Shown in pieces: positions 213-3,581 of a stretch of DNA of 64,000 nt (position 1 is its first letter; every line of letters starts with the position of its first letter). The notes below the pieces were generated by a model. It was not told the origin of the DNA. It was given only the letters and a program-made list of their open reading frames with translations, and did not search any database. The stretch is from Sulfitobacter sp. (GTDB lineage Bacteria; Pseudomonadota; Alphaproteobacteria; Rhodobacterales; Rhodobacteraceae): NCBI GenBank assembly GCA_017854855.1, contig JAFMGZ010000011.1, positions 1 through 64,000 on the forward strand, in the 5' to 3' direction. A program made the position numbers and the translations under genes.

Positions 213-262
213 TTTTATAGGGCCTGACCTTATAGGTCCTGACTTTACAGGGCCTGAAAATC

Positions 263-294
263 GCGCCCCCGCCCGTTGGAAGGGGTGGGGGCGC
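263..294 (+). terminator. GC-rich hairpin downstream of boxB
   Basis: Arms 263-274 and 283-294 pair over 12 bp with one G-T pair around an 8-base loop. There is no T-run after it, so it may be an mRNA-stabilising intercistronic hairpin rather than a true terminator. Just upstream (216-257) the motif GGCCTGA/GGTCCTGA repeats three times at 15-base intervals. Confidence 0.45.
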
Positions 295-334
295 AAGACC
301 TGAACCTGATCTTTCGTCAAAAGGGACCTTCGCT

Positions 335-505
335 ATGCAGCTCAACCGCACCATTGGTCACGCTCCCCGAACCGAAGCGCTTGTGCGTGATGTGGCAAAC
401 CTGCCAGGCCCCTGCGTGGGCTGTGCCGGATGCCAGGGAATTTGCGAAGCGCTGTTTGACGCGATATTGATCCCTGACATCATATTGAGGGACCGCCACA
501 CATGA
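335..505 (+). CDS. 56-residue four-cysteine protein between boxB and boxA
   Basis: An ATG at 335 opens 56 codons ending in a TGA that overlaps the boxA start by four bases (ATGA at 502-505), a typical translational coupling arrangement. A purine-rich AAGGGA lies 8 bases before the ATG. Residues 27-37 form C-x2-C-x2-C-x3-C, the spacing of a classical [4Fe-4S] half ferredoxin, followed by E rather than P. I do not recognise the family. It could be a small electron carrier or an accessory or maturation factor for the BoxA/BoxB oxygenase. Coding status is inferred from the ribosome binding site, the overlap and the cysteine motif. Confidence 0.55.
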   Translation: MQLNRTIGHAPRTEALVRDVANLPGPCVGCAGCQGICEALFDAILIPDIILRDRHT

Positions 506-1680
506 ACAGCCCCGTAAAGCAGCACCTGATCGACCCCGAAATTTGTATCCGGTGCTACACCTGCGAAATGACCTGCCCAGTGGGCGCGATCGAACATGAT
601 GACAACAATGTCGTGGTGAATGCAGATGCCTGCAACTTTTGCATGGATTGCATTCCCGTCTGCCCTACCGGTTCCATCGACGAATGGCGTGTCGTTGACA
701 CGCCTTACACCTTGGAACAGCAATACGCGTTTGATGAGCTTCCCGAACAGGAAGACATCGAAGTGGCACCAGCCAGCGCAGGGGATGATGCCGCTGATCC
801 TATCGCCGCGCTATTGGCCGAAGCGCATAAAGGTGCAGGCGGCAAGGCCAAGGCCCCCGCGAGCGCGGCCAAACCCGCCATCAACATGTACAACCTTGGC
901 AAACCCGCCAGGATGACGGTGCAGGGCAATTATCCTCTGACCAAGGACCCGTCACATGATGTGCGACACATCATTCTGGACCCGGGCGCATTGCCCTTTC
1001 CCGTGTTGGAGGGGCAGTCGGTCGGCATCATACCACCGGGCAAGGATGCGCAAGGAAATGCCCATCTTCCGCGGCTCTATTCGATCTCAAGCCCACGCGA
1101 TGGGGAGCGGCCCGGCTATCACAACATATCTTTGACCGTGAAGCGCGAGGAAAAGGGGCTTGCCTCAAACTATCTTTGTGATTTGCAGCAAGGTGCCGAG
1201 GTTGAAGTGACTGGGCCGTTCGGCGCGACGTTCTTGATGCCCAGCACGCCTGATGCGCATTTGCTGCTGATCTGTACCGGCACGGGGTCTGCCCCGATGC
1301 GTGCCTTTACCATGCAGCGCCAGCGCAGCGGTGCCACGGGTGGCATGACCATGTTCTTTGGGGCGCGCACACCAGAAAGCCTGCCCTATTTCGGCCCGCT
1401 CAAGAAAGTGCCGAAAAGCCTGTTGAACCAGCATCTGGTGTTCAGCCGTCAACCGGGACAGGAGAAAGAATACGTACAGGACCGTATGGTGGCCGAAGAG
1501 GACGCGATTGCGGAACTGTTGCAGAGCGACAAGACGCATATCTACATCTGCGGTCTGCGCGGCATGGAAGAGGGCGTGGAACGCGCGCTGACCTCCATTG
1601 CGGAAAGCACGGGCCAGCAGTGGACCGCCTTGCGCGATGTGATGCGTGAAGATGGTCGTTATCACGTGGAAACCTATTGA
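502..1680 (+). CDS. boxA: Benzoyl-CoA oxygenase component A (ferredoxin-flavin reductase)
   Basis: This 392-residue protein is the NADPH-dependent reductase that supplies electrons to the BoxB epoxidase. Residues 15-25 and 44-54 are two C-x2-C-x2-C-x3-C-P clusters for two [4Fe-4S] centres. A variable Ala-rich linker (about 90-135) leads to a ferredoxin-NADP reductase module with RLYSISSP (FAD binding) and LLICTGTGSAPMRAF (nucleotide binding). The C-terminus MREDGRYHVETY is typical of BoxA. The start overlaps the preceding four-cysteine ORF, and the next gene begins directly after the stop, so all are probably one transcript induced through BoxR. Confidence 0.93.
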   Translation: MNSPVKQHLIDPEICIRCYTCEMTCPVGAIEHDDNNVVVNADACNFCMDCIPVCPTGSIDEWRVVDTPYTLEQQYAFDELPEQEDIEVAPASAGDDAADPIAALLAEAHKGAGGKAKAPASAAKPAINMYNLGKPARMTVQGNYPLTKDPSHDVRHIILDPGALPFPVLEGQSVGIIPPGKDAQGNAHLPRLYSISSPRDGERPGYHNISLTVKREEKGLASNYLCDLQQGAEVEVTGPFGATFLMPSTPDAHLLLICTGTGSAPMRAFTMQRQRSGATGGMTMFFGARTPESLPYFGPLKKVPKSLLNQHLVFSRQPGQEKEYVQDRMVAEEDAIAELLQSDKTHIYICGLRGMEEGVERALTSIAESTGQQWTALRDVMREDGRYHVETY

Positions 1681-2106
1681 ATGGCCGATCAGGTTTTCGT
1701 TCATCCTGTGAATGTGACATGGGGCGACTGTGATCCCGCCAAGATCGCTTATACAGCGCGGCTGCCCTATTTCGCGTTGGATGCGATCAATGCCTGGTGG
1801 GAGGCGCATCTGGACGGCGACGGTTGGTTCCAGATGGAACTGGACCGCAATGTGGGCACGCCCTTTGTCCGTATGGAAATGGATTTTCGCAGCCCCGTAA
1901 CTCCCCGCCATAAATTGCTATGCGAAACCTACCCGACGCGGCTTGGCTCCAAGTCAATCAGTTTCGCGGTCAAGGGGCGGCAGGCGGATGTTCTATGCTT
2001 TCAGGGGGCATTCACCTGTGTGTTCACCATTGCGGATCAGTTCAAAAGCCAGGTCGTCCCTGACGATTTTCGCGCCGTGATAGAGCCGCATATCCGCCCG
2101 GCATAA
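1681..2106 (+). CDS. 4-hydroxybenzoyl-CoA thioesterase-family hotdog protein
   Basis: A 141-residue single hotdog domain. The N-terminal motif VTWGDCDPAKIAY matches the GDCDPAG signature of Pseudomonas-type 4-hydroxybenzoyl-CoA thioesterase, with Asp18 at the catalytic position. The gene starts on the base after the boxA stop, so it belongs to the box operon. It probably hydrolyses stalled or unwanted aryl-CoA esters and so frees CoA when benzoyl-CoA processing lags. The exact substrate cannot be told from sequence. Confidence 0.85.
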   Translation: MADQVFVHPVNVTWGDCDPAKIAYTARLPYFALDAINAWWEAHLDGDGWFQMELDRNVGTPFVRMEMDFRSPVTPRHKLLCETYPTRLGSKSISFAVKGRQADVLCFQGAFTCVFTIADQFKSQVVPDDFRAVIEPHIRPA

Positions 2107-2172: not shown

Positions 2173-3069
2173 ATGACCAAAGTCGCAGAGACCCCCAAGC
2201 AGGGTGACGCCGGATCAGAGTTGATCGCGCGCCTTGCCGCACGCGTGGCCGAGGCCCGCAAGAAGCGTGGGTTGCCGCGACGTGTCTTGTCAGAGATGTC
2301 TGGCGTATCTCCCCGTTATCTGGCGCAGCTTGAGGCAGGGGCGGGGAATATCTCGATCCTGCTGCTGCAACGCGTGGCAGATGCCCTTGAGATCCGGGTC
2401 GAAGCCTTGCTGGCAGAGGATATCCCGCTTGATCATGATGTCTTGCGCGTGGCGGCATTGTTTCGACAGGCACCTGTGCCGGTACAGCATCAGGTGCGCA
2501 GTTTGCTGGCCCCGCAGAACCCCGCGATGATGCGCGCCGGTCGGATTTGTTTGATTGGCTTGCGGGGGGCAGGAAAGTCTACCCTTGGCAAGATGGCAGG
2601 AGAGGCCTTGGGCATCCCCTTTGTCGAGTTGAACAAATACATTGAGGACAATGCAGATATGCCGCTGGCCGAGGTGATGGCGTTTTACGGCGAAGCAGGC
2701 TATCGCCGGATGGAAGCCGAGGCGTTGGAGCAGGTCAGCGTCCGTCACAATCAGGTCATTCTGGCAGTGGCTGGTGGCATCGTCGCCGAAGAGCAAACCT
2801 ATGCCCGGTTGTTGGAGCGTTTCCATACCGTCTGGATCAGGACAAGTCCCGCAGAGCATATGCAGCGGGTCCGGGCGCAGGGTGACCACCGTCCGATGCG
2901 GGGCAATCCCGGTGCCATGGCGCAGTTGCGCGAGCTGCTACAGGCCCGTACGCCGCTTTATGACAGGGCAGAGGCGCAGGTGAACACGGCGAACCGAACC
3001 CCGCGTTCATCGCTGAATGATTTGCTGGCCGTCATTTCAACGCAACGGTTCCTAGAAACCAGCACATGA
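2173..3069 (+). CDS. boxR: BoxR/BzdR-type regulator: HTH fused to a shikimate-kinase-like domain
   Basis: 298 residues from the preferred ATG at 2173, which follows AAGGGA at a workable distance. An in-frame ATG at 2134 would add 13 residues. Residues about 17-80 form an XRE-type helix-turn-helix. From about 122 onward there is a shikimate-kinase-like domain with P-loop GLRGAGKST (129-137). This fusion is characteristic of BzdR and BoxR, repressors that bind benzoyl-CoA in the kinase-like domain. It should control the surrounding box genes. The stop overlaps the next start by four bases. Confidence 0.9.
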   Translation: MTKVAETPKQGDAGSELIARLAARVAEARKKRGLPRRVLSEMSGVSPRYLAQLEAGAGNISILLLQRVADALEIRVEALLAEDIPLDHDVLRVAALFRQAPVPVQHQVRSLLAPQNPAMMRAGRICLIGLRGAGKSTLGKMAGEALGIPFVELNKYIEDNADMPLAEVMAFYGEAGYRRMEAEALEQVSVRHNQVILAVAGGIVAEEQTYARLLERFHTVWIRTSPAEHMQRVRAQGDHRPMRGNPGAMAQLRELLQARTPLYDRAEAQVNTANRTPRSSLNDLLAVISTQRFLETST

Positions 3070-3581
3070 CGGAAAATGCCGCAGCCATCATATTGGTGCA
3101 GGATGTTTTTTGGCAGATGGGCGAGGCCCTGATGTTTCAGCATACCAACCCATGGGAGTTGGACGAGGCGCTGATGGATTGGGGCTATCTTATGGGCCCT
3201 TGCGAGGCGCAGGATCTGGTCGGACTGGAAAAGGTTCTGGCGCGCAGTCCTGAACGCCCCATTCCCATACTTCACCGAATGGTTTCTGAAGGGCGCATGG
3301 GAAAAGGGGGCGGCGTGGGGTATTACCGTTATCCCGGCGGGGGCGGTGCGGTGATTGACCCACTGATCGAGGATCTGATCCTCGAGGAAGCCTGGTTTGG
3401 CAAGATGACCCGTTCAGAGCTGCCAGATGCTGCATTGGTGCAGCGGATGAACGCCGCGCTGACGCCTGTCTGCGCCAATTTGCTGGATGAAGGCATGACA
3501 CCAGCCGCGTTGCTGGCATTGCTTGGCGTGGCCATTCACTATCCCATGGATCGTGGCCTGGGCAGCATAGGCATGGCATAG
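3066..3581 (+). CDS. 3-hydroxyacyl-CoA dehydrogenase C-terminal-domain protein without NAD domain
   Basis: 171 residues that resemble only the C-terminal half of FadB/Hbd-type 3-hydroxyacyl-CoA dehydrogenases. The first copy of the domain includes MDWGYLMGPCEAQDLVGL, then GRMGKGGGVGYYRYP, and a second partial copy near LLDEGMTPAALLALLG. The N-terminal Rossmann NAD-binding domain is absent, and no broken remnant lies upstream because the gene overlaps boxR by four bases. It may be a structural or CoA-ester-binding accessory in benzoyl-CoA catabolism, or a partner for a dehydrogenase encoded elsewhere. Its function is not known to me. Confidence 0.7.
   Translation: MTENAAAIILVQDVFWQMGEALMFQHTNPWELDEALMDWGYLMGPCEAQDLVGLEKVLARSPERPIPILHRMVSEGRMGKGGGVGYYRYPGGGGAVIDPLIEDLILEEAWFGKMTRSELPDAALVQRMNAALTPVCANLLDEGMTPAALLALLGVAIHYPMDRGLGSIGMA

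Follow-up and report, generated by a model that had tools for sequence, protein, structure and literature searches.

Does the gap between boxB and boxA hold a gene of its own and, if so, is its product a dedicated partner of the benzoyl-CoA epoxidase? This question was raised by a first-pass annotation, made from the letters alone, of the window analysed here, that is, the whole stretch of 64,000 nucleotides from a Sulfitobacter sp. contig (GCA_017854855.1, JAFMGZ010000011.1). The window begins at contig base 1, and boxB is truncated by the contig start. The features concerned are collected in Table 1. The first-pass annotation was right in every coordinate of the short frame (335-505, 56 aa, four-base overlap with boxA), and the C-x2-C-x2-C-x3-C motif that it read there is confirmed as Cys 27, 30, 33 and 37. 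It also described an ATG with a good ribosome binding site; both the ATG and the site are present, but the Shine-Dalgarno-like site (AAAAGGG, 9 nt before the ATG) is graded moderate, not strong.

Table 1. Features around the small ORF, in window coordinates.
Feature	Position	Strand	Basis or remark
boxB 3' end, last 69 codons	1..212	+	TIGR03225 tail, E 7.7e-28
Spacer between boxB and small gene, 122 nt	213..334	+	15-bp tandem repeat 206-257, GC-rich hairpin 263-294
AAAAGGG, Shine-Dalgarno-like site of small ORF	319..325	+	9 nt 5' of ATG
Small ORF, 56 aa, conserved four-Cys family member	335..505	+	ATG 335, TGA 503-505; family comparison
Motif codons C27-x2-C30-x2-C33-x3-C37	413..445	+	window sequence, translation
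ATGA overlap, small ORF stop / boxA start	502..505	+	4 nt, sequence
boxA, benzoyl-CoA 2,3-epoxidase subunit BoxA	502..1680	+	TIGR03224, 510 bits
4HBT_2 thioesterase-like gene, box cluster	1681..2106	+	homologue also 3' of 9/20 box-less small-gene copies

Some other elements of the locus and its relatives are as follows. The tandem repeat comprises 3.5 copies and straddles the boxB stop, and the hairpin in the spacer 5' of the small ORF is 12 bp long. In the same genus, a genome without the small gene (G1187) has a long inverted repeat in the boxB-boxA gap, seen by eye, and another (L255) has a 444-nt gap with a different ORF of ~130 aa, at about 1045-1488, which replaces the small gene and is SnoaL-like by eye. 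Further downstream in the window, positions 3066-3581 (+) encode a 171-aa protein after boxR, whose sole domain match is C-terminal 3HCDH (PF00725, 1.2e-7); its relatives follow boxR in many of the named loci described below (70 in all). The sole Rfam match in the window at gathering thresholds is the ffh sRNA (RF01793, 22027-22078, minus strand).

Based on a search with the BoxA profile (TIGR03224), 74 of 394 Rhodobacteraceae genomes, about one per genus, were found to contain BoxA, and 54 of these carry a CX2CX2CX3C frame between boxB and boxA. Among the other 20, there is no room in 15 (gaps of -4 to 116 nt) and the frame is shifted in one (L033), while the rest comprise an empty 208-nt gap (L068), two loci without boxB beside boxA (L039, L067) and one locus cut by the contig end (L082). 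In two unlinked genomes (G138, G271), the small gene directly follows boxB on another contig. The start is usually an ATG with a Shine-Dalgarno site, about 26 codons before the first motif cysteine. The hidden gene with conserved cysteines proposed in the first-pass annotation is thus borne out in 54/74 sampled box clusters of the family, and the check that it had suggested, translating the boxB-boxA gaps of relatives, finds frame and cysteines conserved in 54 of the 56 Rhodobacteraceae gaps longer than 150 nt, against 0.02/56 in dinucleotide shuffles and 0/56 on the reverse strand.

Selection was assessed on seven copies from the window's genus. For 16 of the 21 pairs dN/dS is 0.06-0.28, the other five being not computable and dS often saturated. 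The coding frame has a mean pN/pS of 0.228/0.654, and the two shifted frames have 0.353/0.282 and 0.375/0.227, so that the synonymous bias is confined to the coding frame. A chance ORF is ruled out by the shuffles, the reverse strand and this frame-specific bias, and 335-505 is a genuine conserved small-protein gene of Rhodobacteraceae.

Across the family loci the protein is 50-67 aa long (median 56), and C27, C30, C33, G35, C37, P47 and L51 are invariant or nearly so. Over 112 distinct proteins, G35 and P47 are each kept in 111, G29 in 107, L51 in 106 and L40 in 104, and position 42 is acidic (D or E) in 111. The four motif cysteines occur in 112/112, largely through the choice of loci: 62 loci were picked by a cysteine regular expression, and the presence of Cys in them is therefore by construction, whereas the others were picked by GLCx[AE]LI[DE][AT][LM], which fixes the last Cys only. 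Note that alignment A1 contains 61 sequences, L044 being excluded; the frameshifted L238 was left out of both A3 and the 112 proteins, and L218 was left out of A3 and kept among the 112.

How, then, is the gene related to boxA? In the 54 loci, 39 copies overlap boxA by 4 nt, five are spaced at -1 to +1 and the remaining ten stop 61-333 nt short of boxA. The frequent ATGA overlap, together with the GC-rich hairpin and the repeat in the window's spacer, might point to a leader or coupling ORF, whose translation rather than product controls boxA. However, the amino-acid constraint is strong, ten of the 54 box copies end well short of boxA, and the copies in genomes without box genes are intact with no boxA downstream, which makes such a leader the least probable of the readings weighed here.

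The overlap would also suit the role proposed in the first-pass annotation, that of a dedicated iron-sulfur partner of the epoxidase; such a small protein might pass electrons from BoxA to BoxB or help to insert the clusters of BoxA. In addition to the position between boxB and boxA, co-occurrence speaks for this role: profile A1 matches at least 68 of the 394 genomes, with at least 56 of the 74 BoxA-positive and at least 12 of the 320 BoxA-negative ones, and the gene still adjoins boxB in G138 and G271, where boxA is on another contig. These counts are lower bounds, since a divergent copy in G076 (L044) was missed by the profile; at most 16 candidates were scored per genome. One of the 56 BoxA-positive matches is frameshifted (G068), and the 12 BoxA-negative ones include two weak partial matches (G060, G151), one frameshifted copy (G201) and two genomes that have boxB (G278, G448). 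In the last two the order is boxB, small gene and a BoxR-like gene (L154, L159), with no BoxA match in the assembly; boxA may be missing, replaced or unassembled there.

However, many box clusters lack the gene. In the window's genus BoxA occurs in 30 of 58 genomes, and the small gene is present in 8 of these 30 and absent from 22; outside the family, none of the 27 examined boxA loci has it within 500 nt upstream. The gene is therefore far from being found in nearly all box clusters of its clade (54/74 in the family, 8/30 in the genus, 0/27 outside the family). A class-wide profile search in 190 genomes, with at most 34 candidates each, gave the window as the only match. One named locus labelled Rhizobiaceae (L233) comes from a MAG. 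Plasmid records gave no match to the small protein, and 13 BoxA-bearing plasmid records exist. On a quick BoxA tree of 106 rows, from which duplicate loci and partial BoxA were dropped, the presence of the gene changes 16 times, at least 6 of them forced by starred branches, which are less certain in quick trees. Considering its absence from 22/30 clusters in the genus and 27/27 loci outside the family and its patchiness on the BoxA tree, box clusters are evidently maintained without the small gene.

The second line of evidence comes from copies beyond the box clusters. Named genomes were scanned with a pattern that spans the last Cys; 92 stretches matched and 70 loci were confirmed: 44 with the order boxB, small gene, boxA, two box loci at contig ends, four beside a BoxR-like gene (Mameliella) and 20 without box genes. 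Shine-Dalgarno-like sites precede 43/44 copies of the first kind and 16/20 box-less copies; no match was seen 5' of the four Mameliella copies and the other four box-less ones. Nineteen of the 20 box-less loci are intact and one (L238) is frameshifted. The BoxB search was positive in 5 of 33 genomes and the BoxA search in 3 of 23, each with none of the 20 box-less genomes among the positives. Several box-less genomes are MAGs or drafts, and a missing BoxA or BoxB could therefore reflect an assembly gap; since Leisingera and its kin dominate these loci, they do not represent 20 independent cases. BoxR was matched in 0 of 24 genomes that have the small gene and no BoxB match (at most 60 candidates per genome; positive control 3/3), and BoxR as the partner is ruled out on this basis.

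The neighbourhood of the box-less copies tells something about their history. Upstream there is a TRAP dctPQM system in 14 of the 20 loci and an FAH gene in 12, and downstream a thioesterase gene in nine; an opposite-strand gene, which we take to be YcaQ-like, followed by a LacI-type gene, is present in 18. The usual box cluster has the order benzoate-CoA ligase-like, DUF309-like (again a presumed name, like YcaQ, without model match), boxB, small gene, boxA, thioesterase, boxR, YcaQ-like and LacI, and the same YcaQ-like neighbour lies beyond the cluster in 18 of the 44 boxB-small gene-boxA loci. With this neighbour common to both, the small gene in the 18 box-less loci keeps its syntenic spot, the enzymes being gone. 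A quick tree of the YcaQ-like neighbour from 36 loci (18 box, 18 box-less) gives five changes, all five forced by starred branches, the less certain ones, and we infer that loss of the box genes is likelier than an acquisition in which boxB and boxA came to flank one small gene. Four more box-less genomes (G275, G297, G324, G390) show other neighbours or parts of the layout. No constant partner gene emerged from the neighbour comparison of the 20 loci.

The box-less copies are also constrained, with a median dN/dS of 0.12 over the computable pairs (55 pairs, 11 Leisingera-clade loci). Since the copies of this clade are intact and under selection, the protein has a function that needs neither BoxA, BoxB nor BoxR, at least in the Leisingera clade. 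The gene also stays where BoxA and BoxB are not matched, being intact in 19 such genomes; genomes that had lost the small gene along with them would escape this count. It might be argued that the gene is a hitch-hiking remnant conserved by neutral inertia, as two frameshifted copies (L033, L238) and the 16 presence changes on the BoxA tree would fit, of which the less certain starred branches force at least 6; yet dN/dS is about 0.1 in box and box-less copies alike, so we regard a remnant as very unlikely.

A further group of loci deserves description. In G441, a further copy lies in a TRAP / CoA-ligase / BoxR-like cluster with boxA and boxB not adjacent, and the four Mameliella loci are alike. 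These five loci (L213, L215, L216, L237, L163) contain TRAP genes, an SDR, a PRK12582-like acyl-CoA synthetase, the four-Cys gene, a BoxR-like regulator and an HCDH-type gene, and the clusters lie away from the genome's BoxA/BoxB in the searched genomes (the genome of L216 being outside the search).

Taken against the dedicated partner, then, are its absence from 22/30 box clusters of the genus and from 27/27 examined boxA loci outside the family, the intact copies in 19 genomes where neither BoxA nor BoxB is matched, with selection in the 11 loci tested, and the five Mameliella and G441 copies in BoxR-like clusters without adjacent boxA/boxB. Because the gene is absent from many box clusters, with 15/74 gaps of 116 nt or less, and persists without box genes, the product is not a dedicated subunit of the benzoyl-CoA epoxidase. 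The first-pass proposal of a dedicated partner is accordingly not supported, and we consider a role of this kind unlikely. The small gene is strongly tied to box clusters, yet it is not dedicated to the box pathway.

What kind of protein is it? The window protein has no significant Pfam or NCBIfam match, with no Pfam family at E<=1 and no match to a curated Fer4 model. Other members match Fer4-type families weakly (among 61, Fer4_2 in 11, best E 0.0095, and Fer4_21 in four, best 5.4e-4), and membership of a known family was therefore rejected. Among PDB profiles, the top matches are to the Cys motifs of PsaC (columns 22-38) and cover 15-17 motif columns. With Fer4-type bacterial ferredoxins and PsaC the family shares the local C-x-G-C-x-x-C-x-x-x-C pattern; in contrast to them, it aligns over these 15-17 columns only, has no second motif, exactly four cysteines being present in 106/112 proteins, and shows no strands in low-confidence models. 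The adjoining boxA gene encodes an N-terminal 2[4Fe-4S] ferredoxin domain with the same Cys spacing, but that domain has two motifs and Pro after the fourth Cys, which is so followed in 2/112 small proteins, and the profile similarity is limited to the motif (hhalign probability 6%, E 0.006, 15 columns). Consequently, an origin from the BoxA ferredoxin domain was rejected.

The copies of the window and of R. pomeroyi were modelled with AF2; both models, of low confidence (mean pLDDT 65, pTM 0.27-0.28), consist of a helix at 11-21, the cysteine loop and a helix from residue 38, with no strands. At the same low confidence, the conserved segment P-[DE]-x-[IV]-L is predicted to close the second helix. 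Foldseek with the low-confidence window-copy model (mean pLDDT 65) gave no PDB match. In 2[4Fe-4S] ferredoxins, each motif gives its first three cysteines to one cluster and its fourth to the other. A single-motif chain would therefore need all four cysteines on one cluster, or a homodimer. The statement in the first-pass annotation that this spacing binds [4Fe-4S] was thus too strong for a protein with a single motif, Pro after the fourth Cys in 2/112 members and no ferredoxin fold in low-confidence models. Fe-S binding by the four-Cys protein is plausible, and the Cys pattern, with four cysteines only in 106/112 proteins, favours a metal site, most likely Fe-S.

The same features would be compatible with a protein whose four cysteines bind zinc or act as thiols, in a structural, regulatory or thiol-redox role, in place of an Fe-S protein. 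Exactly four cysteines in 106/112 members, the rarity of Pro after the fourth, the strandless low-confidence models and the lack of a significant family match for the window protein would all suit it. However, C-[VIL]-G-C-x-x-C-x-G-x-C has the spacing and local pattern of ferredoxins, and CX2CX2CX3C inside 11 residues is unusual for a single zinc site. We therefore hold this alternative to be possible, though less probable than the Fe-S protein described below.

Is anything similar known? In the literature, among the matches listed, nothing concerned a small protein between boxB and boxA, and in the R. pomeroyi proteogenomics paper (PMC3305630) the word benzoyl is absent from the main text. 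The closest published concept found is the semidoxin. According to PMC12648291 (JACS Au 2025), semidoxins and protodoxin PD1, which are half-ferredoxins, are likewise free-standing small proteins whose chains each carry a single Cys motif of the [4Fe-4S] type. Semidoxins have a length of about 30 aa and are modelled as beta-alpha-beta homodimers; the paper finds very short ferredoxins almost only in anaerobes, and the semidoxins reported so far all come from thermophilic ones. The present family shares the single CX2CX2CX3C motif, but not the length of about 30 residues, with its 50-67 aa (median 56); it is predicted to be helix-loop-helix (low-confidence models), and its hosts mostly (56/68 profile matches, lower bounds) encode an O2-dependent epoxidase. 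The resemblance, as far as models can tell, is in motif and not in length, predicted fold or host.

Based on all of the above, the reading that we favour, with a probability of roughly one half, is a small single-motif Cys protein, probably Fe-S, which serves as a redox protein or sensor and is encoded with the box pathway but outlives it. In the predicted architecture, two helices flank a cysteine loop that carries the single CX2CX2CX3C site. The four cysteines would hold an Fe-S cluster, with each chain binding its own [4Fe-4S] or with clusters shared between the two chains of a homodimer, and the protein may act as a small redox carrier or as a sensor of redox state or oxygen. Within box clusters, the stop/start overlap probably couples its translation to that of boxA; it would then be produced during benzoyl-CoA oxidation, in which it may assist. 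The essential partner would lie elsewhere than among the box enzymes, since box clusters can do without the gene and the gene persists after their loss. A more specific version is tentative: an aerobic, 'half-ferredoxin-like' family of Rhodobacteraceae, with a helical frame and oxygen-tolerant clusters (perhaps across a homodimer), which would serve as a general small redox carrier and be translated within the box operon yet be selected independently.

With this finding, a well-studied aromatic pathway gains a conserved family of small proteins that has no significant match in Pfam or NCBIfam; it is also a case in which operon position misleads about the partner of a small protein. Should the protein bear a cluster, aerobes would have a minimal Fe-S protein with a single motif, a kind that PMC12648291 reports almost exclusively from anaerobes.
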